The notes beneath the pieces were generated by a model. That model worked only from the letters and a program-made list of their open reading frames with translations, was not told the DNA's origin and ran no database searches. From assembly GCA_963969395.1 (NCBI GenBank), contig OZ017796.1, positions 30,804,243 through 30,868,242 on the forward strand: a stretch of 64,000 nt of DNA. Reading direction: 5' to 3'. This document shows, in pieces, positions 4,451-59,882 of the stretch; position 1 is the first letter of the stretch; every line of letters starts with the position of its first letter. Origin of the DNA: Pseudoscleropodium purum (taxonomy: Eukaryota > Streptophyta > Bryopsida > Hypnales > Brachytheciaceae). A program made the translations under genes and the position numbers.

Positions 4451-6632
4451 TACAAACATCCTTGGTTCTTGTACTTGAACTCTATTTTTTGCGTATCCTA
4501 CCGAAATTGAATTTGCAAATAATTCACATCAATAGATGTATCATGAGTTGTAGAAGCAGGGAGTATTTTAGGAATCACAATTTGATTTCCAAAATAAAGC
4601 ATTTCAATTGTTGAGAATTTTAGTCACTTGTGTTTTGTTTGATTATAAGTTTTAATTGGGGTGTGTCGATTGAATATAGATGTCATATAATCTTGACGAT
4701 GCCATCTAATGAAATGTATTGACTTCATGCCAATGACCTTCATAAAAGGAAATTTTAACTCCGGGCTTGTTTTTTCCGATTTTATGTTTCAGCCACTTAC
4801 CATAAGTAAATTGGAAAACTATTTGACTGTGGATATTGTGTAGTAGACAGAAGGGTCATGCGTTGGTAATGAGCAATCACGAATTGAGGAATCCAAGCCT
4901 TTTGATAAGAAAAGTAAGCTTTCTAATAATCTTATCTAATTTTCTTGTATCTTCTTCTTCGTCTATTTTATTTCACGTATTGTAGCACAGCTGATGTCTA
5001 CTATGAGGATCAATGGATCACTAGTTCCTCATTAGTACTTTCTGGACATTTTTTAAGTTGAACTAAGAAATTAGAGCCTTCATATCCCCATACAAGATAA
5101 AGACAAAGTCCCTCAATTTAATGCCAAGAAATTGTAAGGGCAATTGTAATTCTTCCATTATAAAAAGGTTTTGTATGTTTTCTCTATGAATAATTGCTTA
5201 TTTTAAAATGAAAGGTGAATCTAATGAGAATTGAATAAGATTATTCATCATGGCAATCTAAACAACCTGAGGTTATTTGACTTGACTTTGGTAATGCACA
5301 TATTTTGTTTTTTTACATAGAGGACTTGGAGATTCATTCCGATGTTTCAAATCCAAAAACTCCTAGTTGGAATTTTAAGAGACTATATTTGACTGGCCAT
5401 CACATTTTTCTAGTGTAGAACTCACTTTTTTAGACTTATATATACTATAGTTGGCTCTTATACTTATTTGTGTGAAGTCTTTGATGTCATACATGCTTGC
5501 TATACTTTGTTGGTGTTTCTAGTTGCGATGAACAATACTTGCTAGTTACTCCTAGTTCAACAACTGATATTTCTTGGTCAATTATGCATTCTAGGATAAT
5601 GATATATGTGAGTCGTCATGCTCAAAGGAGCATGTATCTCGGAAGTAAGTTTCTGATCTCATGTCGTTACTATCTCCTGTTGAGGTAGGATTACATGCAC
5701 ATGATTGAATAATGCTCAAATCATTTGTTTAAATATCAAAAAATGAATTATTCAAAAATTACTACGTTTCTTTACAACTCAATCTTCTCATGTAGAAACA
5801 TGAAGAATATTCATTAACTCGATGCATATTGTTTAATTGTTCAGGTATTGCTAATTGTGTGAAGTTTCTATAATCGTGGGTTCAAATGTTTTTCTTCTTG
5901 AATCTTATTAGGAATTAGTACATGTTTGATTTGGTGAAATTATGTATAGCTAATGAAGCTCAAACAAGCTACCATAGTAAATTATTACTTCTGTTCCTTG
6001 AGGCAAGTTCTTTAAGAGTTGCTTTAGTAGTTTTGTAGCTCAATATTGTTCATTTATGGCTTGATTCTATCCATCCCTACAAAATGTGTAATTGAACCAA
6101 CTTTGTATCCTCAGGAACTTATCATCGTCGTAGATGAGTTGTTGGTTGCCATAGTGGATGTGGGAGTACGAAAACTCAAAATAGATAGGATTATTCTAGA
6201 ATAGGATTAGAAAGAATTTCTGTCTTTTATTTTTTTTGGTAACCCATAGAGATTTTGGCTACCTTAAGAATATTGTGAAAATAGTTAGTTTCTGGATTGC
6301 TAGGATCATTATTAGCGTTACAGAAACGGAACTGATACGGATCCGGGATCCAAAAAAGTTCTGGATTTCTTGATACCTATGGTCTAGGGTTTTAGTCTAG
6401 GGAACTAGGGTACTGTTAGGGGAATGGTCTTCTACCCATTCTCCACCGGGAACTGTCAGCTACATGCCAAGTACTTAAACCCACTGCCATTTTAGTCTTC
6501 TCCTTTTTTGGTTGCTAAACCTCGTGGACGTATAGTTGAGAGAAAAAGTGGTGAGTTAGTGACTGTGATAAGGAGAGGACGGAAAGATTGGTGCCGTTTG
6601 CACTAGATTAGGTTGTTGGGTGTCAGTGATTC
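4451..6632. other. AT-rich stretch without recognised genes
   Basis: Only short chance frames occur here (for example 5497-5688). No RNA gene or repeat array was recognised. From about 6309 the base composition rises and appears to belong with the gag-like relic that follows. Confidence 0.5.
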
Positions 6633-14442: not shown

Positions 14443-14635
14443 CAGGGTTGACAAGACGTCCAGACGCGGACGCTGTGTCCGCAGCATCTGCCTATCCCCC
14501 GTCCGCCCCGTCCGTCCGCCTCGCTCGTCCGCTTTCCAACGGCGGTCGGGACGCTGCGTCCGCTAGCGTTCGGACGTCCGGACGTCCGAAAAACGGACGT
14601 TATTTTGGGGCGGACGTTGAAATTCATCAACCCTG
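14443..14635. mobile_element. 193-bp GC-rich hAT-like MITE, copy 1
   Basis: It begins CAGGGTTGAC and ends TTCATCAACCCTG, so the ends are inverted repeats. It is flanked by 8-bp direct repeats acctccaa (14435-14442) and acttccaa (14636-14643), 7 of 8 identical. The interior is dense in CGGACG/CGTCCG hexamers and strikingly GC-rich for this window. An 8-bp target duplication and a CAGGG terminus are typical of the hAT superfamily. Its first ~110 bp match the left end, and its last ~90 bp the right end, of the 11.9-kb element that starts 127 bp downstream, so it looks like an internally deleted relative in the same orientation. Confidence 0.85.
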
Positions 14636-14761
14636 ACTTCCAAGATGCTTTCCATTTCTTTTTGCTACTCACTCACCATATACACAAGCATGACCTCTTG
14701 CTCAAAGATCTATAAGATTTCAAGCACCTCCAAATAGTACTAGTAATCTACCTTTTCCAGA

Positions 14762-14935
14762 CAGGGTTGACACGACGTCCAGACATCCGGAACGTCCGAA
14801 TGCGGACGCTGTGTTCGCAGCGTCCGCCGGGACCGCCCCGTCCGCCTGTCACCCCGTCCGCCCCGCCCGTCCGCTTTGACGGCCCTATTTCCCCCGACCG
14901 CCCTACCCAAACTGCCCTGCGGTCACTCCCTTAAT
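14762..14935. repeat. Left terminal GC-rich array of the 11.9-kb element
   Basis: It starts with the CAGGGTTGA inverted terminus and then carries many GGACG/CGTCC words. GC content falls sharply after about 14935. It matches the left half of the 193-bp MITE. Confidence 0.8.
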
Positions 14936-15320
14936 CTTTAAACAATTAAATGTTAAATGAAGTGCAATGGTTCGCGATTTGTTATTAAAACAATGTCTCT
15001 TATAAGTTCAAAGATTATAAAGTTTGACCATAAGTCCATGATAGTCTTGAAACTATGAAAAAATTTCAATTCATTTTCAGAAGGCAAACTAAAAAAGTTT
15101 GTGACTTCAAATATATATATATACTATTTAAAAAATCAAGATCAACACAAATACAAACATAATCAATATGGGCAAAATGTATTGAATTTAATATAGAATA
15201 CCATACATTGTGTACATTTGGCTAATTGCACATATAATTTTTTTCATTCCAACTCTATATTTCTAAACTAATTTTTAATGCCTATATAACCTATTCAACT
15301 ACTACTTCTGCACTACCAAT
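14936..15320. other. AT-rich spacer
   Basis: It lies between the left terminal array and the end of gene A and includes a short (TA)n at about 15112-15123. No coding sequence was seen. Confidence 0.6.
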
Positions 15321-15500
15321 CTAATATAAATGGCGGAAATGTTCATCTGGCATCGGCCAATGATATGTATTAGAAAATCGCGTAATCACATGGGCCAAAC
15401 TAGTATTTTCATCGTCAGTCTTCGAAGAAATGTGCTTTAAGTAAGCATAAAACACTTTTGCAAAGTCATGAAAGGCAAATTGTGTCGCACTAGGTGTTTT

Positions 15501-16814
15501 TCATAGCAAGTTGAAATACGCCTCTGACATGTTGTTTCCATTCATCCGCCGAGCAATTTTTCGAATGGCATACTCTTCCGACTTACGTGAATACATCGAA
15601 ATGACTTCCACATCTACACCTACTTTATGCAAATATGCAATATGTGGATCCACCCACCATCTCCTCTGCAAAGTTTGTTTCATCTCATCTACTAATGTGA
15701 ATGTGTACAAAGACTTCATTGGCTGAGAAGTTAAGGTGGTCATGCCCCAATCGCAAACTCCAATGTACACACGTGATCCATCCTCTAGAAAATGCAACAA
15801 GATGTTGTCCGGAGAAAGATCATTGTGCAAATGTCTAGCAAGATGCACTGCATACATTATATGCATAAACGCCCATGTCAACTCCGTGCGCTTCTTCCGA
15901 TATCGCCCTAAACGGTGAGCTTTTACAACCTCTTTTTCGGTTGGATTTGTATACATCAAACGGATTTGAATGTTGTCTGGATAGTCCTTATCCATATTCA
16001 ACATTTGTCGAAGAGTTCCACCATTCCACCAATACGCATAACCTTCACATGTCGTTCTGTGCACCGTAGCAAACCGTATCACACCCGCGTGTGGAATTCG
16101 AACAGCCATTGATTTGTTTTGATGTTCTAACTTTGCAAGATCGGGTCGAGTTTGGTAGTGAATGGATTTCTTTGCCGCAAACTTCCAATAAGGAAGTATT
16201 CCTAGACATCCTTCAATACGAACCTTTCGAATCGTTGCATATCCACCTCTCATCGTTCTATCATCAAAAGCAATCACGCGTGTTGTATCTGGAAGTGCTA
16301 TGAGGTGCTGTTTGGTCCTTTTCACTTCAGCAACTCCATCATTGCTTTTCCACCAACCAATTGAACCAACTCGATTGTGCTTTTTGGCGAATGGAGCACA
16401 TCGCCCCCTAAACAAGTCCGCTTTCAGAATCACTTCTTCAAACTGGGCGTTATTGGGTCGATATTCCTTGCCATATTTAACCAAAATGACTCTGGAATTC
16501 CACAAAGCGTCATAAACCTTGTTCTCCAAACATTTGGTGAAGTACGTTTTATGCATTTCGTCATGCCACTTCGCTACATTCAATGCATCCAACAACATCT
16601 GTGTCATGTCTACCTTGAATTTAGACACGCACTCCTCTTGATATCTGATGTACTTATTGTCTAAAGACAATGTTGTTTCCGATTCATAAAATTGAACGAT
16701 GCGCTCGATCATGAATTTTTTGCATTCTTCCGAAGGACTTTGGCGAGCTACCTCCAAGTTTGATGGTCCCTCTCCATGTTTTAACTTCGCAACCTTCTTC
16801 TTCCCGTTCGGCAT
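15501..16814 (-). CDS. Protein-kinase-like protein (gene A of the element)
   Basis: An uninterrupted 437-codon minus-strand frame starts at ATG 16814 and has no introns. The C-terminal half has kinase landmarks in the right order: a glycine loop RGGYAT (about 189-194), a lysine pair in FAAKK (215-216), a glutamate in KLEHQNK (230), a hinge-like YAYWWNGG (259-266), a catalytic loop HNDLSPDN (330-337) with Asp332 and Asn337, and CDWG (354-357) in place of DFG. All metal and catalytic positions are kept, so it could be active. The N-terminal ~180 residues are unrecognised. In the same frame, after the TGA at 15501-15503, coding-like sequence continues about 59 codons to a TAG at 15321. The TGA is one C-to-T change from CGA, so the C-terminus is probably truncated. 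Its likely promoter is the GC array at 17031-17355. Confidence 0.7.
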   Translation of the reverse strand: MPNGKKKVAKLKHGEGPSNLEVARQSPSEECKKFMIERIVQFYESETTLSLDNKYIRYQEECVSKFKVDMTQMLLDALNVAKWHDEMHKTYFTKCLENKVYDALWNSRVILVKYGKEYRPNNAQFEEVILKADLFRGRCAPFAKKHNRVGSIGWWKSNDGVAEVKRTKQHLIALPDTTRVIAFDDRTMRGGYATIRKVRIEGCLGILPYWKFAAKKSIHYQTRPDLAKLEHQNKSMAVRIPHAGVIRFATVHRTTCEGYAYWWNGGTLRQMLNMDKDYPDNIQIRLMYTNPTEKEVVKAHRLGRYRKKRTELTWAFMHIMYAVHLARHLHNDLSPDNILLHFLEDGSRVYIGVCDWGMTTLTSQPMKSLYTFTLVDEMKQTLQRRWWVDPHIAYLHKVGVDVEVISMYSRKSEEYAIRKIARRMNGNNMSEAYFNLL

Positions 16815-17030
16815 CGTGACAAATGAAATTGATATAGATCAAATTTTTTAATTTAAAATTGAATTCACGCGCAAGTGTCCAACAAATTGGCAACAAGGGG
16901 GCCCCAATAAACCACTCTTGCCTTGCCTCGGAAAGGAGCCAATGGAGGATGAACTACCAAGCTCTCCGCTCCACCTCGCATTCACAAGGGACAAAACAAA
17001 AATGACAATGCCGATGGCCCGTCTGCCCCT

Positions 17031-17355
17031 CTTATAAGTTGCGGACGGCCCCAAACCGTCCGCCCGATCGGACGGACCGGGGGTGGCGGATGCATCGGCC
17101 GTCCGCCTCCCCGAAACCCTCGAGCCCTGTCCGCCCGATCGGACGGCCACGGGTGGACAAATCTGGCGTCCGCCCGATCCGACGGGCAGCGGTGGACAGC
17201 CTGTTCGCCCCATCAGATGGCCCCAAACCGTCCACCCGATCGGACAGGCCGCGGATGGCGGACACATCGGCCGTCCACCTCCCCGAAACCCTTGAGCCCC
17301 GTCCACTCGATCGAACGGCCACGGGCGGACAAATCAAGCGTCCGCCCGATCCGAT
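17031..17355 (-). promoter_or_regulatory. GC array plus TATA-like box upstream of gene A
   Basis: This CpG-dense block consists of two tandem copies of a ~175-bp unit (starting at about 17041 and 17217) containing ccgtccgcccgatcggacgg-type words. On the minus strand it ends in cttataag (17031-17038), a TATA-like box about 217 bp before the gene A start codon. The same order (array, TATA-like box, gene) recurs before genes B and C. The promoter role is inferred. Open frames across it are by-products of the repeat. Confidence 0.55.
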
Positions 17356-17949
17356 TTATTTTCCATATTTGAAAATAGAATCTAAAGAAGAACCATTAAT
17401 TGTCTAATTTGGGCATTTCTTCATACCAATAAGAAATCATTTTAGTTTTTAGCAATCGTTGAATGAAAAATAAAAAAATTTCAAATATTCAAATAATTCA
17501 ATCTTTCATAAATTAATTAGAAATACATTTATACTATTTACTAGTTTTTAAATGTAATAAACACACAACAATAATTTCAAAATACACACCATGCTAGTAC
17601 ATATTTAACCTCGAATGCTAAATTCAAAAATAGACATAATATGGCTCTTACAAAGTTATATTTCTTCTTCATATTTTTATTATTTATCAAAGTCGCTCAT
17701 AGCCTTATACATCAACACTATTATAAAATAATACAATGATGTCTTCAACAATATGCTTGCCTACATACATACTTGGTGTACACTATTACACAACACTTTT
17801 TGAAAAAGTGAACAAAATTGTTGTTCAATATTGTTCTATTCATTTAAAATTTTGTACTACTTCTACCAATCTAGTGCTCTATACTTGTCGTGAGAGTAAA
17901 AATGAGAAAATTAAGCAAATACATGCTCACTATATACTTGCATGTTTTT
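17356..17949. other. AT-rich spacer between array A and gene B
   Basis: No coding sequence was recognised. The short plus-strand frame at 17736-18011 overlaps the 3' end of gene B and looks fortuitous. Confidence 0.5.
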
Positions 17950-19262
17950 TTATTCGGAATCTGAATCGGACTCAAATTGTTGACCGCTGCCTCTTCTTTG
18001 TACTCCAATGAACAGACCACCTCCGTAGTTTCTATGATATCCACTCGGTGCACCTCCTTGTCCATAGTTTAAACCTCCAAAAGTAGGAGGAGGAACCGGA
18101 GTAGTAGGCTTTGATCCTCTTTCATTTGAAGCCCCATAATAAGAGGCCCCATGATGCCCGTATGAAACTATGAATCACTTCTAGTTGATCCCGGATAGAA
18201 TTGGGTGCTTCCGTAAAAAGAGCAACTATACTGCGGGGTTACATGGCTTCCTCCACTACTTTCGGAGCCCATTTGAGTGGGCGTCATATAATATGAACTA
18301 GATCCATTAGACCTACTATAGTGCGTGTTGCCATAGCTACCTGCTCCACCTTGAGAGCCAATTTCAGGGAGAGTGCCATAATGAGAACCAACTGTACTTG
18401 AACCACCATAATGCGTGGATCCATAGCTCCCTCTTCCACCTTCATATCTATTTTGAGGATCGTAACCAAAGTATGAACCACCTCTTCCTTGTTCAGATTC
18501 TCACGTTCTATGTTCATGTCCGTAGGACCCACCATGCCTATCTTGCCGTCCACGATCTTCAAGGCTTCTGTGTGTTGCCTCTTGCATTTGTTGTTCGAAT
18601 TCAATTCGTTCTCGTTCTTCTACCCGTTCGTGCCTAACTCCAAATGTGACAAGCGCTTGCATATCATCGTCATCATTGTCATCTGTCCACGCATCTTCAG
18701 CATCTCGTAGAACAACTGAAGGTTGTTGTAGATAACCTTGATTGGACCACTCTGGCATGCAATCGCTTGCGCCCCTCCACTATGTATCTATAATGGCATC
18801 CGTGCGCGTGTAGTTCTCCACATTGCGACCTGTAGCGGTACGCCAGTCCACGTCCTTGTGGAGTACAATCTCTACCCAAACCATTGTCATAACATTATAA
18901 TTCATTATATTTGGTTTGGCGCTTTTAATGCCAAAAACTCAATGCACTTGTGTGTATCGTTGTTTGAAGTGCTCACTTTGGCACGTAAACATTTGTCCTT
19001 CCCAACGTGGCATTTGGTACTCTACACGTTCACGTTGCCAAAGTTTTTGAATGTGAGTCATTTTCACATACTTCTTGCACATTGAACAATCCCACACTCT
19101 TGTTGGTTCTTCTTCCCATCCCGGTTCACCCACGCACAATGGATCGGCCCAAGCATCCCAATCAAACAATTGGGGTCTTCCCTTTCGACTACTTTTTTGG
19201 GTGTTCTATCTTTCGGTATGATGAAGCCGAAGCAAAGAGAATGAAACAATTAGAAAGCTTAA
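17950..19262 (-). pseudogene. Cys/His-domain protein with Gly/Tyr/Ser-rich tail (gene B of the element)
   Basis: One minus-strand frame runs from about 19262 to 18171. It is interrupted by TAG 19206-19208, TGA 18939-18941, TAG 18780-18782, TGA 18501-18503 and TAG 18168-18170, all one C-to-T change from CAG or CGA. After a frameshift near 18170 it continues to TAA 17950-17952. Order of parts: basic SSRKGRP, then WADPL...GWEEE, then WDCSMCKKYVKMTHIQKL, then FTCQSEHFKQRY, then FG.K....I.NY. Next come a Glu/Arg-rich helix and a long tail of Tyr, Gly, Ser and His residues ending ESDSDSE. The N-terminal part aligns with gene C. No fold is recognised; Cys/His spacing suggests metal binding, which is inference. 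The true start is unclear. The array at 19388-19805 lies directly upstream. Confidence 0.5.
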
Positions 19263-19387
19263 GAACCAAAATTTTGATTTAATTAATTAATTAAAATTTT
19301 AAAAGCGTGAACTTTGTGAAAATTTGTAACAATCTCACAACAATCGTTCACTCAAAGCGGAAGGGGCGTGCAGAGCTTCTAAAGCAC

Positions 19388-19805
19388 TGGTCCGCCCACT
19401 CCAAAAGAGAACGATTGTTCGGAATGAGCCGTCCGCCTCCCCATATATATATGTGGACGCCCCGAGGCGAACGTCCAGATCATGCGGACCACATCAGTCC
19501 GCGTGTCAATCGAACGGCCGTAACCGGGCGGACAGGGCGGACAGGGCGGACGCCGAATCGGATAGACAAGGCGGACGAGTATCGGGGCGGACGCCGGATC
19601 GGGCGGACTGGGCGGACGGAGGACAGGGTGGACGGGTATTGGGGGTGGATGGAGCGGACTCCGGATCGGGCGGACAGGGCGGACGGAGAACGGGACAGAC
19701 AAGTATTGGGGCGGACAAGGCGAACGCCGGATCGGGCGGATGGAGAACCGGGCGGACAGGTATTGGGGCGGACAAGGCAGACGCCGGATCGGGCGGACGG
19801 CTCAT
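19388..19805 (-). promoter_or_regulatory. GC array plus TATA-like box upstream of gene B
   Basis: Several 55-70-bp imperfect tandem units share gccggatcgggcggac (about 19590, 19661, 19730 and 19786). The array is rich in GGGCGGAC and lies on the upstream side of gene B. A TATA-like catatatatat is at 19442-19452. The word content is the reverse complement of that in the gene A array (CCGTCCGCCCGATC). Long open frames across it reflect the repeat and were not called as genes. Confidence 0.5.
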
Positions 19806-20275
19806 CTTAAACCCTAAACCCAATGAAGCAAATTGTTCTTTTTTCAAAATCTCACGGTATAGATGTTTAACCCCTAAAGTTCTTTTCACTAAAAACACTT
19901 CAAAACTGCCATTAGTAGTGCAAATACCAAGTCTTGGAAGAAAATTACTTTTGGGCATATGTAACTGTAGGATCTTGTAGTAAATTAGTTGGAAAAGATG
20001 TGGAAAAAATTTTAGACAAATCCACCATTTGGATTGTAAGATATTAGATATTGAATGTTTCATTTAAGGGGGCTACTCAATTATGTCTATTAATGAACAA
20101 TTGGTAGGCTAACAAACCTAACTTAACATGTATTTTAATATTTGTTGCAATTGTTTTAGGAATATTATAACATAACACTATTATAATATTCTTATAAATG
20201 ATATAGTACTAAATCATTTCAAAATCAACAACATTCAAACACAATCTGTCAATCTTGTCTTCCATACTCCTTTAA

Positions 20276-20277
<2 letters not shown>

Positions 20278-20328
<51 letters not shown>

Positions 20329-20334
20329 TATATA
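20278..20334. repeat. (TA)n microsatellite
   Basis: Nearly perfect TA dinucleotides, about 28 copies, with one interruption near its end. Confidence 0.95.
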
Positions 20335-22116
20335 CATACATAAAATATATTAGATAAATCAACATGAACAAATCAATGATTATATATTTCATAGATCTAT
20401 TCTTCATCAATCAAATAAGAGTGCATGTTCAAATATAGACAAAGATGGTTTCTTCATTTGTTCCCAAAAAATAGATAAACAAATAGAGAAAGATATGAAG
20501 TGAATGTTACTTGGAAAATTGGAAAGAAAGAAATTGAAAAGAAAGAAATTGAAGTACTCAATTGCATTTTATTAAATTGGAAAATTGCATGCGGATGGCA
20601 TGAATTAATCTTCATAGATGCTAAACTCATACGAGTTGCATTTCAACATTTATGATTTATGCAATTGATTGAATTGAAAGCTCTTGTAATTACATTTTCA
20701 AATTTTCGATTCAATCATTCAAATTTGCAAGAGTGATTTATGATAGATTTATAACTATAAATGTGAAAACATTGAATGCCTTTATGCGTTTGTTCATCAA
20801 TATATTAATTTTAAATAAATAATATATATTTTTTATAACATATGCATAAACCATTGCATTAAAAAAACAAAAAAACAAAGAGCCAAGCCAAATAGGCTGG
20901 TCAAATGAAGAGAACAAGAGAATAAGAGCCCTACGAGACAGAAAGTAAAGGAAAATAAAGAAAATATCAAAAGGATAAAAAGGAAGGAGCAAGATGCATT
21001 CTTGCAAGACCGTAGAATACATAATGATTTCAAAATCCAAACACATTAACACAAATATATTTTTTATTTCAATGAGAGCCAAAAATGAAAAATGAACTAC
21101 CCTGCTCTCAAAGATTGTACAATGTACATGTTATACAAAATGAACATATAACAGAAAGAGTAGAAGACATTGTTTATCATGATTGAAAACTGAAATGATT
21201 TTTTCTTTCTATATAGAATATTTTATGAAATGTAACAATGTATTTAATTATCATAGTAATTGGTAGAAATCTTTGTGCAATACATAGAAACATTTCATTC
21301 ATGTGGAGTTTTTTCATTTATTTAGGATTAAAATTGAAGTATTATACTCTACAAAGTACAAACCAAAAACAATACCATATACCTAAGTTCAAAAGTTTGC
21401 AATTGTTTCGTGAATTCATTTTGAAAACTCAAACAAAGAAATATTTTATAATCAATATCTTGTTCATTTGAATCATTTCAAAAATCGAATTCCGAATTCA
21501 ATTCCTATTTATAATAGAAATTATATTTGTCAATTTTTTAGATCTTTAAACAATGAACCCTCTTTTTTAAAATTAATATTTAAAAACATCTGAAATAAGA
21601 ATATTGGAATTATCCTTCAAAATAAATATAGCACATGTATAAGTGTATAATGTATTCTACTCCACCAACTTAAGTAACGAATTTTTCTATGTTTTTAAGG
21701 AAAAATATAGCCATACATGATTTGAAAGTTAAATATTGATTCTTTTTCTTTGTTTTCAAATCTAATCAAAATTTCATTAAAAAATATGAAAGACTCGATG
21801 TTCATTTGAAGATCGTGATGCACTTTTAATGAGAAATCACAACCTTTCATTAAATATCATGAGGTTGAAATCCATTAAACTGTTATTCTAATTATGTATT
21901 GGGGCCTTTTTAAAAAATTTCATTTGCTTATGATGAAAAAGGAATTGATTATTTCTGCAAAACATTTGATTTTCTAATGAACTTTAAAAAAATCCCCACC
22001 ATCTTCAGATCTTCTCAAAACCTATTTAGAGGGATAATATAAGTAAATAATCCAAACATATTCAACTTAATTACATTCCCTTCATTCGTAAAACAATTTA
22101 GGGGAGAAAAGAAAAG

Positions 22117-22151
22117 GTTTAGGGTAATTAGGGTATAGGGTTTAGGGTTTA
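22117..22151. repeat. Interstitial telomere-like tract
   Basis: A few degenerate copies of the plant telomere word TTTAGGG (gggtttagggttta at its end). Too short to imply a former chromosome end. Confidence 0.5.
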
Positions 22152-22264
22152 CATTTTTTTTTTAAAAAATGATAAATCAATTACATTGATCCTCATTTAG
22201 CAGTGATTATTAGGCTGTTTTATTTTTGAAATGTTACTGCTCTTTTTGAATAATAATGGCCTCA

Positions 22265-22519
22265 TAGGATGCACCAATGGACAACTGGGCGGACGCCGTC
22301 GGCGGTCAGTGTTTAAGTGGGGCGGTCGGCATGTCCAAAGCGCGGACGGCGTCGGAAGGCGAACAGTGCGAACAGTCCAGTCGGACGAGGCGGTCGGACG
22401 GGGCGACGGGCGGACGGCGCGTCCGTTGCCGAAGCGAACGTCGTCGGTCCGCGCGGCGAACGCGAGGTTCGGGGCCGCTTCGCGCGGTCAGGGGCAAGTC
22501 CGGCGGCGGACGGCTATAA
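22265..22519 (+). promoter_or_regulatory. GC array plus TATA-like box upstream of gene C
   Basis: A CpG-dense block rich in GGCGGACG and GCGGTCGG lies directly before gene C. It ends in ggctataagg (22510-22519), a TATA-like box about 205 bp before the ATG at 22723. This matches the arrangement at genes A and B. The promoter role is inferred from position and from the threefold recurrence. Confidence 0.55.
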
Positions 22520-22722
22520 GGGTGGAGTGACTTTCATTTCTTCTCACTTCAATTCTCCTTGGGTGCCAAGTTGGATGTGCTACTATTGCTTTATGTGCTA
22601 GTTGCTCCTACGGGGTGGAGAGTTGGGGTCCTCTATCTTTTGTTACTGTATTGCGGTTGATGCCATCACTTTTGACTATCACGTGAGATTTTTTTATTCA
22701 CTTCAATTGGTTATTGACAATC

Positions 22723-25700
22723 ATGAACGGCGAAGGTGATCGAAATATGGATGGGGTGACTCTAGGAAGCGAAGCCAAGAAAAAGAGCAAAGTAAAGGGG
22801 GCTACACATGACCTTCGGCTTGACATTTTAAATGACCCTACAATTAAAGCAGAGAGCGGGTGGGATGATAAAATGCGGAGTATTGGACATAAAAAATGTG
22901 CAGGATCTATGTTAAAATGTACCACATTGACAAGTTATAGCCTCAAGAGTCGCACAAGAGTCATACACGGGATTTTTGTTGTAAACCATGGACTTGCAAC
23001 AACAAACATTTTGTCCATCGATTTGAGGAGGTGTGGCGTGTTTTATTCGGAAACAAGCGCAAAAGCAAAGGCTATATTAATTATAGCGTGGCGTGTATAG
23101 TTTACACTGAACTTATATTAAAGCGCAAAATCGATTGGAGCACGTTTCCGACAACAACAGCTTGCCCACTTCTACTTGAAGCCAATCAAAAGGACATTCC
23201 TGACTTGTACAATTCAGAGGGAGAAATAAAAAAAGTATTAAAAAATACTATTGAGGTGAAAACGGATGGTGTGGAGAAAGCCTCAAATGTTGAAGAATTA
23301 CGATCTGTACAATCTCCAACAAAAGCAATCAATGAAAGCTCTTCAAAAAATGTGGAGAAAGATGTGGAGAAAGATGTAGAGGCGTAGGAGGGTGAAGTCT
23401 TTTCCACAGCTCCAACGCGTTTGACCTTTACACCAAATGTTGCGGCACAAACGCAAACAGAGTTTGTAAACGAAGTCAAGGTTTGCACGGAACGCGGGGA
23501 AACTTCAAAAAGTAAAGTAGACGAAGTCTTGGCGGAGAAAGTGGCAAAGGCTAATGCTACAATTGATAGTCTGATAGCCAACAATTGTTTTGATAGTTTG
23601 GTTTACAAATCTCCGCCTATGCATCAAGGCGTCAAATCTAGTCCAGCGTTAAGTTTAGAAGACAAAGTACATACGCTTCGTGGACAAGACGTGACGATTG
23701 ATAATATACCCTCATTATGGAGTTCCGAGCGTAAAAGGCGGGCAGAAGAGTTTCCGTTTACAACGGCATTGCCAAGTCCTCTACATCGAACCTTGCAAGA
23801 CATGTCCAATCCAAAACAATTGGAAAATCTTTTGAAGCTCTCGGTTCAGTTTGCTAACCTTCATGAAGAAATAGGCAGATTGTCTAACCCTGATGATGGT
23901 GCTACTTCTGTTCCAATGAGTCCACTTGCAGATCCAAAGAATGTTGGACATATACTTGATATAGCTTTCAAGATGACGATGTCAGCTGAATTTTTAGCGA
24001 AAGTTGCTTCGACTTTTATGAATTTGGCCAAGGAGTTTTCTTTCATGGCACCAGAGATGTTGAAAGGTGCTATAGCATTTCAGAATCTCACGAAGACTTT
24101 TGGACCACTGTTCGAAGAAAGAGATGTTCACATACTACAATTGGTGGAATATGAGAAGAAAATTGTTGACCTTAGAGGAGTGGAAGCAAGGTGCAAAATG
24201 TTGAAGTTGAAATTAAAGACTTCGGAGAGTGAGGTTGAACATTTAAATCAACAATCATCGAGGCAAATGGAGGAGTTGATGAAGATGCGTAAACGGATTG
24301 CAGAATTATAAGGGACCTCCAAGAATCCGAGTGAAGTTGAAATCTCACTAGTGATTGTACTCGGAGACAGTCAAGAGACTCAAGAGAGTAAAGATAAGCT
24401 CTCTCTTCTTTTTGATAAGGCCGAAGCAAACGACAACCCTGCCATTGTGAATGTACAAGAAAGTCACGACATGAGCATGTTAAAAACGACACAACAACCA
24501 TCAATGGAAAAGCTTTCATCTGTTTACGTGAATGCAGAGACGCAAACGGAGAGTTGTGACTTTGAAGAGTTGAAGCATAAATTGGAGGAGGCAATTGAAG
24601 CAAAAGGAATCATTGAATCCAAGTTGAATCGATTGCAATTGTGCTTGGATTTAAAGAAGTTTATGCCATCTAGCGGCTTGGAGTCTCGATGGTTAGCATG
24701 GGTACAAAGACTCCAAGATAGACCCTCTGTAGTATCTCGAGCAATGGCAGGTCTTCAAACATTGGCAATGGAGTCGAATGAAAATTGCGATGCCATTCAA
24801 AGCTCTTTGAGTTGGTTCAAGACTATGTTTGACCAACATTCTTCTAAGGGATATACGGAGATCACATGTTAGGGAGACATGGATGCCATGTTTGAGCAGC
24901 TAAACCACACAAAGAAGGACCAAGCTCCACCCATCAATTGGGCCTTGGAAGTAGAGGAAGGATGGGTCCCTTACAACACACTTTCAGCACACATCAATGT
25001 AAAAGACAAGCGAGTGGTGTATGCTTGTGATCCAGCCTCTCCAATCTTAAATGGTTGTTGTAGCCTTTACCAAGGCCTCTTCGGACCGGAAGGTGCGGTA
25101 ACCATGGGCCAATGTCGCCACACTTTCCATGTCACTTGCATTGTGAAAGCATCATTCATTCGTTCGGTGTGTGCCGAGTGTCGTAGTCCATTGAGTGCTA
25201 GGTTCTACAAAATGTTTGGTATCTTGGAAACTATGCCTGCAGGCCACGAGTACAATCATTGAAATCTTTCTCTTGATCAAGCGCCGTACAAATTTCAAAA
25301 TTATCAACATTGGAGAAAGCCAATCCGGTAGAATACAAATGAACAGAGGCATGATTTGTACGAGGAATCTCAGCAACCATTGGATTTGGATGTGTGGATG
25401 ATTCACAATAGAGAGGTGGAATTGCGGGCTCGAGGAATCGTAGATGACGCGGCCCGTGAAATGTTTTGTCGCAACATGGGGGGACATTGGAGCTTGCAAT
25501 ACGAAAAGTTCTTTCGTTTTCCAGATAAAAAAGTGGAGAGAGGACTAGAAGATAGTTGGGTGGAGGTGAACCATGGAAAAGAATTCGATGAGTAGTATAA
25601 GGCATACGACCACACCCTCGTAGGTAGGGCCCTTCTATTGTCGAAGTTGGAAGAGGCTGCAAAAGTTCGTGCTGTCTATGATACAAATGGACAAACAAGC

Positions 25701-26118
25701 ACAGGACATTCATCTGTAGATGTGGCAGCAACATTTGATAGGCGCATTGGCGATATTATAGGGCATTGGAAGGCTTTCCTATTGGATGGAGAATACCTCA
25801 CAATATGGCAAGGGAAAGGAGATGATGAAGTTGTTTAAGCGATGGTAGATCGTGTGGAGAGCAACTTGAAAACCTTGAAGGCAGACGAAGTCGATTTATC
25901 ACCGAAAAGAAAACAAAAAAGGAAGTGTGAAGAGGACGATGACTTCTCTCCGGAAACCAAGAAACAATTTCATAAGGTGGACATCGAAGTTCAATCTGAA
26001 GGGCAAATAGTCCGTCCAAGTCAACAACGGTCAACTCGTTAATCATCTGCTAAACTCCTCGGTACAGCAGATTTTCCTTTTGTTTTGGGAGAAGGTAGTG
26101 GTCCATCCGGTGGAAAGT
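22723..26118 (+). pseudogene. Cys/His-domain, coiled-coil and RING-like protein (gene C of the element)
   Basis: It begins at ATG 22723 (MNGEGDRN). A basic KKKSKVKG and a GWDDK segment are followed by a frame change in the A-run near 22892, then MCRIYVKMYHIDKL. From about 22896 one frame runs to TAG 26118, broken by stops at 22938, 23385, 24309, 24870, 25260, 25329, 25593, 25836 and 26040. Each is one C-to-T change from CAG, CAA or CGA. After the N-terminal domain shared with gene B come an acidic Lys/Glu linker, a helical region with a coiled-coil stretch (about 24110-24310), a second helical segment, and a Cys-rich block near 25020-25200. That block includes CRHTFHVTC and, 12 residues later, CAEC, like the second half of a RING-H2 finger. 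The tail has a KRKQKRKCEEDDD cluster. The function is unknown; ubiquitin-ligase-like activity would be a guess. Confidence 0.55.
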
Positions 26119-26410
26119 AGGATTTGAGGAGAATTTTGTTTTTTAAAAACAATGGTCCTTTCATTGTTTAAAAACAAAAAAGAATGTGAAAGATTTAGAT
26201 CTTAAAAAGATCATATAAGATTCAATAGTGATATTGGAACTATGTTTTCATGTATTTTGTTTATACATATATATTTATATATAAAGATGCTATATTTTCA
26301 TTTGCGTATAAAATATTTTTATATGTACATCTTATTTTACGTGGATGCATTCATTTTTGATTGTGTAACATTCAAATTACATAACAATATAAAATTTTCT
26401 AATGACTAAT

Positions 26411-26616
26411 GGCAATACGAAGTCCGCCCCGTCCGCCCTGTCCGTTTGCCCCGTCTGGTCTATATGCCTGACCGTCCTGGCCGTCTGCCCCACCCCGCCC
26501 GTCCGCCTTCCGACAGCAGGAGGGACGCTGCGTCCGCTAGCGTCCGTGCATCCGAACGTCCGGACGTCCAGAAAACGGACGCTATTTTGGGCGGACGTTG
26601 AGATTCATCAACCCTG
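26411..26616. repeat. Right terminal GC-rich array of the 11.9-kb element
   Basis: CGTCCG-rich sequence ending GCGGACGTTGAGATTCATC then AACCCTG. The last ~100 bp match the right end of the 193-bp MITE closely, including CGTCCGCTAGCGT and the near-terminal TATTTTGGG. Confidence 0.8.
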
Positions 26617-26624
26617 TTTCCAGA

Positions 26625-28569: not shown

Positions 28570-28926
28570 TTTGAACTACCTCCACCCTCTGGCTGCCTTC
28601 AAACTTAGCTTCCCACCTAGCCACCTTTGAACTCAACTCCTTACTTTGGCTACCTTCCGGATTAGCTCTCTACTCTGGTTGCCTCCAAGAACTCAACTTC
28701 CCATTCTAGCTGTTTTTGGAACCCAACTCTCTACTCTAGCTGCCTTCAGGCTCAACTCCTCACTCTAGCTACCTTTGGGACCAGCTCTCCCCTCTAGTTG
28801 CCTTTAGGGACTTAGCTTCCTACTTTGGTTGTCTTTGAGACCCAACTCTCTACTCTGGCTACCTTTGGAAACTCAGCTCCCCATCCGACTTGCCTTTGGG
28901 ATTCAGCTCCCCACCTAGTTGCCTTC
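28570..28926. repeat. ~30-bp minisatellite, about 12 units
   Basis: Imperfect tandem units of 29-31 bp with consensus near agctgcctttgg, then aactcagctccc, then actct. They are diverged but in clear register from about 28591 to 28926. Confidence 0.8.
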
Positions 28927-32757: not shown

Positions 32758-32943
32758 CAGGGTTGACGAATCTCTACGTCCGCTTGAAAAAGGCGTCCGT
32801 AACCCGGACATGCGTCCGCACGGACGCCAGCAGACACAGCGTCCCTCCCGCCGTCGGAAGGTGGACGGACGGGGCGGACGGGGCGCGATTGTCAGTAGAC
32901 GCTACGAACACAACGTACGCGTCCGGACGTCCTGTCAACCCTG
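32758..32943. mobile_element. 186-bp GC-rich hAT-like MITE, copy 2 (inverted)
   Basis: It starts CAGGGTTGACGAATCTC and ends GTCCTGTCAACCCTG, with flanking 8-bp repeats atagacgt (32750-32757) and acagacgt (32944-32951), 7 of 8 identical. The interior is CGTCCG/CGGACG-rich. Its left end matches the right end of the 11.9-kb element and vice versa, so it is inserted in the opposite orientation. No coding capacity. Confidence 0.85.
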
Positions 32944-41369: not shown

Positions 41370-43770
41370 ATGGCGGTAGGCTTTCCTTCGTCCTTGTCAA
41401 ATCCAATTTCCTACACCTACTGTCCTTGAGTTTTGTGAATTTCGAGAAAATATTTGTTCAGTTTGAATTTTGGGAGCTGAGATCGTTTGAATCATTGGGA
41501 TGGGATTCGGGATTCGGTGGGATTTGGGGGATGGAGTGTTCTAGGGTTTGGAGGTGAAATACGGGTGCTTTGTGTGTGGGATGGGCAGAAAGAAGGGGTG
41601 CATACGGTTCGAGTGAGTAACGTGTCTGCGAAGGCGACGGAGCACGACATACAAGATTTCTTTTCGTTTTCAGGGGAGATTGAACACATCGAGCTTCACA
41701 AGTGAGTAGGTTTGGGCTTGGTAGATCGTTCTGAGGAAGGGAATCGAGATGTGGTTGGATCTGGACTAGAGTTAAGCTTCTGTTGCTGCCTCCGAATTTT
41801 GTGATTTTCATGGATCTTTAATCTCGGGAGAATCGGAGCTTTGTAATTTAGGACAGATCGCAAGGAATTGACATCGAGGTGAGATCTCTGGTGTAATATA
41901 TGTAATTTTAGTTGATCGGATGTAGCATTTCGCTTTAGTCGCATGATGCGTTCGACACATGGAGTCTAGGAAGAATTGGAAACTCGGCGAGCTCTTGAAT
42001 TGCATTGGTTTCTTCAGGGAGTTTCTTTTTAGGGTTTCCTCTGGAATTCTGATTCGACAATGGCTTTTGTAGGGATGGTGAATTGTCCCAGACCGCGTTT
42101 GTTACGTTCAAGGAAGCTCAGGCTCTAGAAACAGCTCTTCTACTCTCCGTAAGTCTTGAGCTTTTAACTCTAGTGTGTCCAAACGTAAAATAGAAAATGT
42201 ACCTGGGGAAGGTTTTAGTTGATTATAGTAACTTCCAAAACATATTTCTATAGTTTAAGAATGTAAGACATGGTGGCTTCTTGCCATTGATACAGTTTGT
42301 CACCATCTTGAAGCTTGCTAAGTGATTCATTTCAACTCCTATAGATATGGAAGAGGCCACATCTGACCAGATGAGCACTTAGCTGTTTGGAATGTCAAGA
42401 TTTGAATTTGAGTCACCTTTGAAGTATGATTTAATTTGGAATTGTCTTGGCTTATTCTGCCATGGCTTATTTCATCTGCGCATTTACTAAACTAAATTGA
42501 ATTTTTTTTAAATGATATCTGAGGCTTTCTGCTTTGGCAGGGAGCCACTGTGGTGGATCAAGCAGTGACTATTGCTCCTGCGGATGAGTCGGAGAGGCTT
42601 GCAAGAAGTGTGGACGCCGTCTCGTTGCAAGATCCGAGCACAGCAGAGCCCACAGTATGGCCTCTGAAATCATTGTCTTTTGTCTTATTGTTTAACTTGT
42701 TCACTTTCGGAGTATTCATGGGCTTCCAGAGAATAAGAGTGAGGTAATTCCTCCTAAAAGGTTTTATTGAGGTAGTTAGTTCACCTATATAGTACCTTCA
42801 GTTATGATTAATTTTTAATTTACTTGGAATTATATTAATTGGTGTAATTTGGAGCCTGATTTTATTGACAAATTGGATTTCACATGCCATGGACGTAAAT
42901 TCCTCGTTATTATATTATTGAGGTGTACCTTCATGCTTGTTAAGGATGCCACCTCCACCAACCCAGCCACGAAGAGCGCACAGGAAGTCTTCCAAAGTAT
43001 GCTGGCAAAAGGCTACGTGCTTGGAAACAACACTATGTCCAAGGCCAAGTCTTTTGATGAGAAGCACCAACTGACAGCCAACGCTTCCCAATTAGCAGCG
43101 AACGCCAAGGCCAACGTTGTTTCTATCGACAACAAGATTGGCATCACCCAGAAATTCAGTGCAGGCACTGCAGCGATCAACCAGCAGGTGAAGGCTGTGG
43201 ATGAAAAGTTCCATGTTTCTGAGAAGACACGAACGGCCGTGCAGGTCAGTGGTTGGGTTTATGCAACATGATTCTATTTTTGCCTAAGGGCATTCAGCAA
43301 TTTACATTCTGCAACTTGGCACACGTACAAATTATTGACAAATTGCTTGACAAATTGCCTGACAAATTGACAAATTCAAGTGGCTAAATGGCAATTTTCA
43401 TTGGACTACCATGTAACTTGAAGTTGGCAATCCTCGTGCATTGGTGCAGGTTGCTGAACAGAAACTCAACGCCGCAGGTTCGGCCATTGCAAAGAATAAA
43501 TACATTCTGACAGGCACAACATGGGTAGTGGGTGCGTATTCCAAGGTTGCCAAAACGGCTGAGGAGGTGGGTCAGAAGACTTTAGAAAGAGTGGCTACTT
43601 TGGGGTCAGGTGACCAGAAATCAACTGCAGGAGCTAGCTCACCAAGTGCACCATCACCACATGCAGCTGATGATGTAGACTTGAGTCCAAAAGTTTCTCC
43701 TCCAACTGAGGTGGATTCTAATGATCTTTCACAACCAGAGCCTGTTTCAAAACCTGCAGCTTCTACTTAA
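41370..43770 (+). CDS. BPA1/BPL-like RRM protein (partner of ACD11)
   Basis: Six coding exons: 41370-41375, 41589-41701, 42073-42148, 42541-42654, 42945-43244 and 43450-43770. All phases agree, giving 930 nt and 309 aa. The start is a two-codon exon (ATG GCG) spliced to AAAGAAGGG, so the protein opens MAKEGVHTVRVSNVS. Residues 6-79 form an RRM with RNP2-like VRVSNV and RNP1-like TAFVTFK. The middle has SMLAKGYVLG and KAKSFDEKHQLT, and the last exon TGTTWVVGAYSKVAKTAEEVG; this order is typical of Arabidopsis BPA1 and its BPL relatives. BPA1 binds ACD11, a ceramide-1-phosphate transfer protein that restrains cell death; that role here is by homology. The C-terminus is Ser/Pro-rich. The acceptor at 42944 (ttaag) is weak, so the start of exon 5 is the least certain junction. 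Confidence 0.88.
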
Positions 43771-44170
43771 GGTGATCGTTTTTTCTCATATTAGGGTTTT
43801 CCTTTAGTGCATAGGAGTAGAAATCCCGAGACTTCTAATGATCTTTCATAACCAGTGCCTGTTTCAAAGCCTGCCGATTTTACTTCAGGTGATCTGTTAT
43901 TATCTTTTTATTAGAGTTATTCTTTACTTTATAGTAACTTGAATCCAGAGATTTCTAATGACCTTTCACAACCAGAGTTTGCTTCTAAGCGTACAGTTTT
44001 TAGGTGATCTTTTTTTTGCTCTTATTACAATTATCCATTATTTATAAAAGTTTGAATCTAGAGACTTCTAATGAGCTTTCACACCTAGAGCCTGCTTCAA
44101 TGCCTACAATCTCTTCTTAGGGTGATCCGTCATTTGCTCATATTAGAGTTATCCTTGACTTCATAATACA
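43713..44170 (+). repeat. Degenerate ~117-bp tandem repeat starting in the last exon of the BPA1-like gene
   Basis: Four units start near 43713, 43830, 43950 and 44063. Each opens with ttctaatgatctttcacaac, continues like the gene's coding end, and then has a ggtgatc word followed by a T-rich stretch. Unit 1 holds the real stop codon; units 2-4 lie downstream, probably in the 3' UTR, and have decayed. Confidence 0.8.
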
Positions 44171-46273: not shown

Positions 46274-46917
46274 TTAACCCCTAAATGCTCAAGACACCCA
46301 AATCTAGTGTTTACAAAACTTTGAAGTTAAATAAAACCTAACCAAACTACTAATTTTTAGTATTTTATATTTTTAGAAAGTTTTTGAAGTCTAATTTTAG
46401 CATAAAAAATAAATGAAAGTGATTTTGTTGTTCAAGATTTTGTGTAAGGGTGCCCATTGCAATCTTGACTCCCATAGTGTTGAGAGCTCTTGGAAATGAG
46501 CCTCAAATACACTAGACCTTGGAGAAAAAATCACATTCAAAATTCATTTAAAAAGGCATAAATTATAGAGTAGATTTTAAGAAGGCATAAATTGATTGGG
46601 GTTATACATGTTAGGCCCTTTAACTTCATATATTTTTGGTCACCAACTTTTTAGATTCAACTTGTGAAAAGAGGATTGCAAGACTTCACATCACTTTTGT
46701 AGTTTTAACACCTTCATGATCAAACATTATAATCTTTCACTCCATAAGTGATATTGTTGTGTTTTCTTTTCCAATTAGATCTCTAACATGTCTAATTTGA
46801 ATTTGTATGGTTACAATCCAAAAAAAATTGATACAACTTATCAAAATGTTGACATTTTGTTCAAATTAGAGCAAACTCCAAGAAGCTCAAAACAAGCCGT
46901 GGGTATTTAGGGGTTAA
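46274..46917. mobile_element. 644-bp piggyBac-type MITE, copy 1
   Basis: It is bounded by TTAA on both sides with inverted ends: TTAACCCCTAAATGCTC on the left and GTATTTAGGGGTTAA on the right. Over its length it is the reverse complement of the 645-bp copy at 63321-63965. It has no coding capacity. Confidence 0.75.
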
Positions 46918-47289: not shown

Positions 47290-49300
47290 ATTAGGTTGTT
47301 TTGTTTTGTTGTTTGTTTGATATATTGAGATCTAACAAATCATGAGGCATTTGGTAGTGTTTTGGGTACCACTCAAAAGGTCTTTGCTCAAAAGGGCGCA
47401 AGCATTTTGTTTCATGGCGTTTCAACTTAGTGAACAAAGGTTATTAAATTTCAAATTTTTTATGAAATGGAAAATAGAATTAAATTATTTTTTATTTTGA
47501 AAAATTCATAACTTTTGCATTGCATGTCCAAATGCCATGAAACAAAGTCTTTACACTCGTGTGTGGGTAAGACTTTCTATTCATGCCAATTTTCGTAGTG
47601 TTTAGACATATGGTGTAGAAGTTATGGATTTTTTAATTAGAAAATTGAATTATTGAATTTTAAAGTTTTCATGGATTAAAAAAATGAAAAAATTACTTTT
47701 ACTTTTGTTTTGGTTGTAGCAACAATACAAGGCACACTAACTGGGAGGTGGCTGGCAACATTCTTGGTACTACTCGAAAGCTCTTGACAAAGTGGTGTGT
47801 GTGTGCACTTTATTTTGTGGTATTTGGACTTACAATTTGAAAGTTATTGAATTTGAAAGTTTTTATAAATTCAGAAATTGAATGAAATTATCTTTTCATT
47901 TTGGAAAATTCATAACTTTTGCTTAGCATGTTCAAATGCCACAAAACAAACCCCTTGCACTCCTTTGTGCCTAGAGCATTCTCTTTACCCCTATTTCATG
48001 ACCTTTTGCTCTACAATTTGAAAGATATTGATTTGGATTTTCTTAATTCAAAAATTGAATTATTGAATTTCAAAGTTTTAATTCCTAAAGTTCCTTCATT
48101 ATGTTTTCACCAAAACACTCCAAAACTACCATTTTTTGGAGAAGTATCAAAAAAATTACAAAACATTTTTGGACACACTCAACCATAATATCTTGTAGTA
48201 TGATAATTTAGAATATGTAGAAAAAGTTTCAAAAATTTCCACCATGTAGATTGCAAGATGTTAGTGTTTGAATTGACATAAAGCCTTTTTTTGGCCTTGC
48301 AAAAAACCGGGCAATTGCACTTTATAAGGTCACATTTGTATGAAAAATGTCCAAAATGGTTGCAACTCTTTCAATTCATTTTTCAAGGCAAGTTGGCTAC
48401 AAGCTTCAAAAATTTCAGATCATTTGGAATTGTACAACATATAGGAAAAAAATAGTAAGTAGAAAGAAGTAGGGAATGAATCAAAATACTAAATTGTTAA
48501 TAATTTAATTATGGAATTGAAAAATGCCAATTCCAATGGTTGTAATGTTGTAATAAAAAATCTTCACCTAATATTTTTATTTTTTTTCAAAAATGTTGAA
48601 ATTGAGTTCAATAAAGAACTTCAAAGTCTATTTTGGAATAGAGAATCCATGACTGCCGGCAAACTAAAATACCTCATAACTTTTGACTCATTGATCAAAA
48701 TGGAATGATTCAAAGCTTTCTATGTATATATGAGTCTAGAAAATTAAGTTCAACTTTTTGTTTTAGAAAAAAGTTATTTTTTAGATTTGCCCAGATTGCC
48801 CAAGTTGATAAACAAATTATATATTAGGCCATACTTTTGACTCATATTTCCAAATGTCTTGAAATTTAGTGCACATGAAAGATATTCCTCATCCACACCT
48901 TCTCTTAAAATTAAGGCCAAAAATATGAAAATCTTTGCTCACATATACCTACCCCCAAAAGTTATGTTGCCAAAAAATGCACCTTGGTCCTTTAGGGGTT
49001 AATAGATTTTTTTAAATGAAAAAATTACCTTTACTTTTACTTTGGTTGTGGCAACAACACAAGGCACACTAGTCCATACCTTAAGTTATTGAAGGCTAAT
49101 AGTTTTGTTTTATTTGTTTATTACATTGAGATCTTTGCAACTATGCATACTTTGGTCATGTTTTTGGTACCATCAAAAACCTCAATAGGAAAGGGTGCAT
49201 GGACTTCATTTTATGGCATATGGACATATGGTGAAGATATTGAATTTCAAAATTTTTATGAATTAAGAAATTAAAAGATTACATTGACTTTGACTTTGAC
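47290..49300. repeat. ~405-bp tandem repeat, about 2.5 units
   Basis: Matching blocks recur. The sequence ataacttttgc, then atgt-caaatgcca, occurs near 47510 and 47914. The sequence aaaattgaattattgaattt occurs near 47642 and 48052. The sequence aaggcacacta occurs near 47730 and 49060. The register is broken between 48078 and 49002 by an inserted TTAA-bounded element. Confidence 0.65.
48078..49002. mobile_element. 925-bp piggyBac-type MITE inside the tandem repeat
   Basis: The left end is TTAATTCCTAAAG and the right end CCTTTAGGGGTTAA. The neighbouring tandem unit near 47660-47690 runs on without this segment and so serves as an empty site. The first ~200 bp resemble 19867-20060 and the last ~100 bp resemble 40040-40138. 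Confidence 0.65.
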
Positions 49301-59214: not shown

Positions 59215-59882
59215 TCAAGCAGTATTTTGCCAAGCATTGGTTGCAATGAGCTTAGCCTTCTTCACTTTCCATCGCTTGGTCCAAGCATCCTTAACCTTTG
59301 AGATGATAAATGTGTCCGATGGTTGACATAAATGTGTAGAACACAATGGTAAATACCTAAGGTTGGCTTGTTTTGCTTCCAAAATAACTATTAAAACTGG
59401 GGTAATGTTATAGCCGGTATAATTGTCAACCCAAATGACTTTTGTGCGGCCATGAACATCGGCTTGGAAGGCTTGAGGTTCAACAAAGTATTCAACAAAA
59501 AGGGCTTGATCCATCCAGCCCTTAGGCCTAGTCCTGTAGCATACCCCTGGAATATTATCTTCAAGGCCCAAAATAGGATAATTGTTGTTGGAATTGGTAA
59601 AAATGAGCATGGGGGCTTCAATCATTGATCGATGCCCTTTGGAGATTCTAATGACCATGGTCATAGAGTCTCCATTGGAAATCACTTCGGCATACTTGAC
59701 ACTTGTGCCCCCCTAAATCCCAATATTCGACCATTGTCAAAATTCACGACAAAATGAGTTTTGTCAACGTTCTCTATAAGATTTTCATCTAAAACACCGA
59801 TTCTGAATCCCCTATGTAGGACACCTAGATGGTAAGTTGTTGCCATTTTGATTTGCAGTTCCTTATTGGGACTATAAGTCAA
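59215..59882 (-). pseudogene. DDE_1-type (pogo/Tigger-like) transposase relic
   Basis: Two overlapping minus-strand frames, 59882-59682 and 59685-59215, join by a frameshift near 59685. The first has NVDKTHFVVNFDNG, holding the first catalytic Asp. The second has RTKVIWVDNYTGYN with the second Asp and LCSTHLCQPSDTFIISKVKD with the third acidic residue, followed by WTKRW. This order is that of DDE_1 endonucleases in pogo/Tigger-like Tc1/mariner elements. Coding-like sequence continues past the stop at 59215 in another frame to about 58970. The N-terminal DNA-binding part is not recognisable. Confidence 0.75.

Follow-up and report, generated by a model that had tools for sequence, protein, structure and literature searches.

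A decayed three-gene element with hAT-type ends in a moss genome, and same-ended relatives that carry a hAT transposase

The stretch analyzed here (the window) comprises 64,000 nucleotides of the genome of the moss Pseudoscleropodium purum (assembly GCA_963969395.1, contig OZ017796.1, positions 30,804,243 to 30,868,242 of the forward strand). It contains an element of 11,855 bp, from 14762 to 26616 in window coordinates, in which a protein-kinase-like gene and two genes with a common Cys/His domain are enclosed by hAT-type ends (Table 1). An earlier note on this DNA had described two inverted ends 11,855 bp apart, flanked by the same octamer; both the exact ends and the duplicated octamer TTTCCAGA, which is identical on the two sides, were confirmed. 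Two miniature inverted-repeat transposable elements (MITEs) of the same family are also present in the window.

Short terminal inverted repeats (TIRs) beginning with CAGGG are of the hAT type. The 9-bp TIR CAGGGTTGA occurs six times in the window, against 0.49 occurrences expected from shuffles, and the six sites form three pairs (the element and the two MITEs) whose flanking octamers agree at 8/8, 7/8, and 7/8 positions. Octamer agreement in the six cross-pairs of these sites was 1-3 of 8, and random octamer pairs match at 8/8 with a rate of 5e-5. The left-type end, CAGGGTTGACAnGACGTCC, and the right-type end, CAGGGTTGAyGAATyTCwACGTCyGC, are unlike each other; the element and each of the two MITEs have one of each, correctly oriented, and allowing up to 7 mismatches revealed no additional left- or right-type end in the window. 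Clusters of GTCCG/CGGAC at both ends of the element form subterminal short-motif arrays, a further hAT character. Hence, the TIR, the duplication, and the octamer controls uphold the earlier assignment to hAT-like ends with an 8-bp target duplication, and the reported match of the terminal arrays to MITEs of about 190 bp also held, given that both window MITEs have the same left- and right-type ends.

Table 1. Parts of the element and MITEs of its family, in window coordinates
Feature	Position	Strand	Remarks
MITE, 193 bp	14443..14635	+	octamers ACCTCCAA / ACTTCCAA
Left target-site duplication	14754..14761		TTTCCAGA
Left end	14762..14930	+	TIR CAGGGTTGA at 14762-14770 (+), then GTCCG-rich subterminal array
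Gene 1, protein-kinase-like	15321..16814	-	one in-frame stop near the C-terminus relative to P0001; catalytic-type residues retained
GTCCG/CGGAC array upstream of gene 1	17035..17356
Gene 2, Cys/His domain and Gly/Tyr/Ser-rich tail	17953..19217	-	stops and a frame break
CGGAC array upstream of gene 2	19379..19810
AT-rich middle	19819..22386		about 93% identical to L029 2994-5514
GTCCG/CGGAC array upstream of gene 3	22280..22518
Gene 3, Cys/His domain, coiled coil, RING finger	22723..26117	+	stops and a frame break
Right end	26418..26616	-	GTCCG-rich subterminal array, then 9-bp TIR at 26608-26616 (-)
Right target-site duplication	26617..26624		TTTCCAGA
MITE, 186 bp, inverted	32758..32943	-	octamers ATAGACGT / ACAGACGT

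Gene 1 has 77 relatives among 2,432 candidates from public proteins, with a best identity of 74%. Most are unnamed metagenomic proteins, and two are named proteins of Ceratodon purpureus, a moss. The database record of one relative, P0002, places this protein in a Bacilli metagenome bin; it is probably moss DNA binned as bacterial. The columns K217, D334, N339, and D357 are invariant in 20 of 20 aligned relatives and are kept in the window copy, consistent with the residues that define the kinase superfamily (the catalytic Lys, an HxD-type Asp with its Asn, and the Asp of a D-W/F-G-type motif). The Pfam Pkinase profile scores 20.1 bits on the window open reading frame (ORF), under its curated cut-off of 31.7. 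Relatives of gene 2 numbered nine among 183 candidates, with lengths of 356-420 amino acids (aa) where long, and those of gene 3 numbered eight among 7,996 scored candidates, one of them being 94% identical. An intact, full-length gene 3 relative, P0079, has 1,121 aa, carries RING-type zinc ligands, and matches zf-RING_11 with 27.9 bits against a cut-off of 27. For window gene 3 the same profile gives 22 bits, below the cut-off, and a Tyr replaces the fourth-position Cys of the CSLCQ motif of relatives. Genes 2 and 3 have the same Cys/His domain (profile comparison 99.7%, E 1.4e-25, 122 columns), and in relatives the genes read intron-free. The relatives, the conserved residues, and this profile comparison confirm the earlier description of a kinase-like gene with two related Cys/His genes. 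What the earlier note did not contain is that all three window genes are broken: besides the frame breaks, genes 1, 2, and 3 have 1, 4, and 9 in-frame stops relative to relatives, and the stops of gene 3 lie mostly where relatives have Gln or Trp, as expected from C-to-T decay.

The motif of the terminal arrays is also found inside the element. GTCCG or CGGAC reaches at least two occurrences per 250 bp in 14 of 256 window bins, nine of which are in the element, three at the MITEs, and two elsewhere with two motifs each. The internal arrays precede the three gene starts by about 160-220 bp or more, and an array is found upstream of each gene at the same positions in three further copies. When 9-mers common to internal and terminal arrays were compared with shuffles, two arrays exceeded 500 of 500 and the kinase array 482 of 500; with 7-mers, neither the kinase array nor the gene-2 array stood out from the shuffles.

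The source genome (313 Mb, 52 contigs) was searched for further copies, with first-look candidate numbers that are unscored and make the copy number inexact: 1,614 for the 189-bp left end, where 40 of 40 scored candidates matched, and 1,385 for gene 2, where 100 of 100 scored matches cover at least residues 7-419 of 420 at 71-76% identity (17 of the 100 being without a stop). Ten of the 100 gene 2 loci were fetched in a non-random manner, nine chosen as stop-free in gene 2 and one for its known left end. Genes 2 and 3 are present in 10 of 10 and the kinase in 8 of 10 (once in part), and order and strands are always those of the window. This constant order agrees with the proposal that everything between the ends moved as one unit, and the search for recurrent copies with the same three genes, which had been suggested as a check, thus returned an abundant family. 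Both ends could be located in six of the ten, the three-gene form measuring 11.7-12.1 kb, and the flanking octamers are identical in three of these six (GCCTTGCT, ACTCAAAC, and CATGAGGT). Moreover, the kinase adjoins the left end in 8 of 8 loci (L001-L008) of the 40 left-end matches. Three pairs of equal-score gene 2 matches in opposite orientation, 7-18 kb apart, were also seen (contig C41, 19755455/19772716 and 19636026/19653544; contig C49, 5135114/5141824), and may represent either a palindromic duplication or an assembly feature.

In the MITE at 14443-14635, the left part is identical to the left end of the element at 88 of 97 aligned bases and the right part matches the right end. A 14-bp direct repeat occurs in both terminal arrays of the element, at 14861 and 26493, and this MITE resembles both element ends joined at that repeat. 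Taken alone, the repeat is also readable as an insertion duplication, and the rejection of a composite insertion rests on recurrence instead. A separate insertion of the internal 11.5 kb into a MITE is unlikely because the end-array motif recurs upstream of each internal gene and because about a dozen further copies have this interior between these ends; nor were inner MITE ends found in the window. Elsewhere in the genome, a family MITE is located within the left end of a three-gene copy (L017 560-922; ends 732 and 922, octamers CCTGCAGT / CTCGCAGT).

A six-frame Pfam search of the window element at E <= 0.1 found no transposase, as the earlier note had stated for this copy, and returned kinase and RING matches together with one marginal match to XhlA, a phage haemolysin family (E 0.019). 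In the source genome, PF05699 gave 664 candidates, of which 150 of 150 scored ones matched. At 5 of 40 scored left ends a PF05699 match lies 7,560-7,708 bp inward in matching orientation, with none outward at that distance, and two of the five have open frames of 743 and 751 aa. One of the five, the sibling L029, is 9,704 bp long (left end at 81, right end at 9784), has the TIR CAGGGTTGA, and carries TTCATAAA on both flanks, so that an exact 8-bp duplication is found in the window element, in L029, and in the three other copies mentioned above. In L029 the kinase is on the minus strand and a BED-DUF659-dimerization transposase (zf-BED 5.2e-4, DUF659 5.6e-31, Dimer_Tnp_hAT 3.2e-9) occupies the position of gene 3; no match to gene 2 or gene 3 was found in L029. 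Its left 2.4 kb are about 95% identical to the window element, and the similarity extends to the middle region (Table 1). The combination of BED, RNase-H-like DUF659, and hAT dimerization domains that characterizes a hAT transposase is therefore present in L029 and lacking in the window element. Because the transposase is not in the window element but is in this same-ended sibling, the window copy is classed as a non-autonomous form of a hAT family, not as an autonomous hAT element.

Two further copies hold all four genes. In L021+L022, gene 3 is followed by an array, a transposase, and the right end; the transposase is 93-96% identical to that of L029 and carries a deletion and an inserted MITE. 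L031+L032, picked by eye for gene 2 and PF05699 matches about 12 kb apart, has the kinase, gene 2, an incomplete gene 3, the transposase, and the right end in that order. Each of the four genes has an upstream array, and another array marks the right end; a GTCCG array is likewise found upstream of the transposase of L029. The left end was found in neither four-gene copy. In nine other fetched gene 2 copies, as in the window, the right end follows gene 3 with no transposase between them (0 of 9). A more distant locus, L030 (1314-9533), was fetched for the longest open frame among the PF05699 matches. One uninterrupted ORF of 1,174 aa has DUF659 and dimerization domains and is 38% identical to the L029 transposase. 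A second, divergent ORF of 699 aa contains a RING finger and can be aligned to gene 3, with a tblastn E of 7.6e-22 for the RING portion and 23-25% across the alignment, Cys/His domain included. The two ORFs flank a GC-rich stretch at about 4751-5750. No ends, or end pair with a convincing duplication, were found at L030, which is thus a locus and not a proven element. The earlier view of the three genes as cargo does not stand in light of L029, which pairs the kinase with a hAT transposase between the same ends, and of the two copies with all four genes. That they would be unrelated cargo is likewise contradicted by the gene-3-like ORF beside the transposase of the diverged L030.

The feature is very probably a decayed copy of a three-gene, transposase-less form of a multi-gene hAT DNA transposon family. 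Between the same ends lie, in different copies, the kinase with genes 2 and 3 or the kinase with a hAT transposase (9.7 kb); MITEs of about 190 bp have these ends as well, and both four-gene copies lead into this right end. Because related copies carry them together with a hAT transposase, the kinase and Cys/His genes look like the transposon's own helper genes and not random cargo, and the window form was most likely moved in trans by transposase from same-ended siblings. In such a scheme, BED/DUF659 transposase made by siblings would recognize the common TIRs and GTCCG arrays and mobilize the three-gene form through cut-and-paste transposition, generating 8-bp duplications. The kinase and the Cys/His and Cys/His-RING proteins would act as helpers or regulators of the transposon, for example by binding the GTCCG arrays of its ends and promoters or by counteracting silencing by the host. 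The different forms could result from deletions or exchanges between arrays. At each junction examined, the breakpoints that separate the forms fall within arrays: in L029, gene 2 is missing from the interval bounded by the kinase and gene-2 arrays, and gene 3 from that bounded by the gene-3 and transposase arrays; in the three-gene form, the transposase is missing from the stretch that its own array and the right-end array delimit; and in the MITEs the two terminal arrays are joined.

Several observations weigh against this interpretation. A complete set of three stop-free genes occurs in none of 11 copies, the window copy among them. In L029 the frames of kinase and transposase are both broken, the transposases of both four-gene copies are broken too, and among the transposases of the family that were read none is intact. 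The four-gene copies, without a left end, do not represent a proven unit with a duplication and could be recombinants, and the flanking octamers are unlike in 3 of the 6 fetched two-ended copies. A public 49-kb contig bears the 94%-identical gene 3, but no kinase above 74% identity was found. The likeness of the kinase array to the ends is weak, being reached by 18 of 500 shuffles at k = 9 and by 88 of 500 at k = 7. Furthermore, within-genome divergence provides no evidence of selection on the genes. Synonymous divergence (dS) is about 0.03-0.1 for most copy pairs, and the median ratios of nonsynonymous to synonymous divergence (dN/dS) among copies are 0.48 for the kinase, 0.66 for gene 2, and 0.60 for gene 3. 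These medians resemble constraint, but no purifying selection is claimed from them, since private changes are nonsynonymous in 92/131 (kinase), 118/153 (gene 2), and 249/364 (gene 3) cases, against neutral expectations of 0.69, 0.77, and 0.69, and so fit neutral C-to-T and G-to-A decay. For shared changes the difference is weak (pooled p = 0.036; 0.016 for gene 2 alone), and the shared-change test reached no significance for the kinase or gene 3.

A more specific proposal can be advanced only tentatively, at somewhat less than even chances: the family may be a multipartite hAT that encodes a signaling kinase, a RING-type protein, and an array-binding Cys/His protein beside its transposase, with functions split among same-ended siblings that complement one another in trans. 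The GTCCG arrays would then serve for transposase docking, for promoter control, and as break points between cassettes. Alternatively, the forms could stem from cassette exchange and not from the loss of genes by a four-gene ancestor: in this view a kinase and transposase element and a gene 2 and gene 3 element recombined in their arrays, the four-gene copies being secondary chimeras and mobilization in trans remaining the same. Such an origin would account for the location of the breakpoints in arrays at every junction examined, for the missing left end of both four-gene copies, and for the unlike octamers of three copies, as recombinants would have. We consider it a real possibility, though less likely than not; against it, the gene-3-like ORF beside the L030 transposase suggests an old association, and the two four-gene copies have an identical order.

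Capture of three neighboring host genes by a non-autonomous hAT, which then spread with them as passengers (a Pack-hAT), would be in keeping with the window copy and 9 of 10 other fetched gene 2 copies, in which gene 3 and the right end have no transposase between them. Plant hATs are known to capture pieces of genes (PMC8903248). This origin is nonetheless highly improbable: the kinase is common to the transposase-bearing L029, two copies join all four genes, a gene-3-like ORF stands at the diverged L030, genes 2 and 3 share a domain, the genes are intron-free in relatives, and each has an upstream array with the end motif. No host source gene was identified in a search of the moss's own genome that was confined to gene 2 and in which the 100 scored matches were not each checked for ends. 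Less probable again is an autonomous element of a new superfamily, with a transposase hidden among the three genes. The element is highly abundant without a Pfam transposase, and AlphaFold models of genes 2 and 3 (mean predicted local distance difference test scores of 41 and 39) are too low in confidence to exclude a novel fold, yet the ends and duplications are of hAT type and the same ends in L029 enclose a canonical hAT transposase with 8-bp duplications. Mobilization of the intervening DNA on one occasion by two MITEs 11.9 kb apart has next to no probability despite the family MITEs nearby, as there are no inner MITE ends on either side and as the same ends flank the same interior in other copies, a recurrence that refutes it.

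Descriptions of hAT elements usually mention a single transposase gene. As in the present family, Ac/Ds of maize combines short TIRs, 8-bp duplications, subterminal repeat arrays, and transposase-bearing forms with smaller or altered transposase-less ones, Ac being 4.6 kb with a single transposase transcript (PMC3260210). In contrast to Ac, a kinase gene and two Cys/His genes, each having an array of its own, lie between the present ends as well, and in contrast to Ac/Ds, the form without transposase has a constant gene set and a length of 11.9 kb. Pack-TYPE elements, including Pack-hAT, are also non-autonomous, gene-bearing TIR elements with 8-bp duplications (PMC8903248). Here, unlike in Pack-TYPE elements, the gene set is constant across copies and partly common to transposase-bearing siblings. 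The window MITEs are comparable to hAT-derived MITEs, with both family ends and 7/8 octamers; unlike the gene-bearing element, they have no genes, and about 100 bp of each end remains in them.

Two-protein transposons are known from plants, where a second protein is encoded by the element itself: TnpA in En/Spm, MURB in MuDR, and VANC in VANDAL21. In En/Spm and with VANC, the second protein acts via short repeats within the element. These systems belong to the CACTA and MULE superfamilies, not to hAT, and are not known to include a kinase or RING protein; a functional likeness to the present family may exist by analogy. No multi-gene hAT with a kinase was recognized in the literature searched, which consisted mostly of listings and the beginnings of abstracts, with subscription journals poorly covered.

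In this family, a constant three-gene form without a transposase is very abundant while same-ended siblings bear the transposase. It thereby offers a natural system for studying the roles of a kinase, a RING protein, and a DNA-binding-type protein in a plant DNA transposon, for asking whether transposon functions can be split among elements, and for examining how gene-bearing elements and MITEs arise via deletion in repeat arrays. A moss protein family labeled hypothetical or bacterial in public sets is explained as well.

Searches of viral contigs with P0001, A1, A2, and A3, of genome contigs with A1 and A2, and of plasmids returned nothing, as did Rfam and tRNA searches. Elsewhere in the window, a DDE_1 endonuclease fragment at 59215-59712 on the minus strand (E 1.6e-9) is a relic of an unrelated DNA transposon. 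An inverted repeat pair is found at 46274-46917 and 63321-63965 (665 aligned bases, 82.7% identical), and local direct repeats with 74-76% identity are located at 28632-28925, 43716-44165, and 47436-48079.

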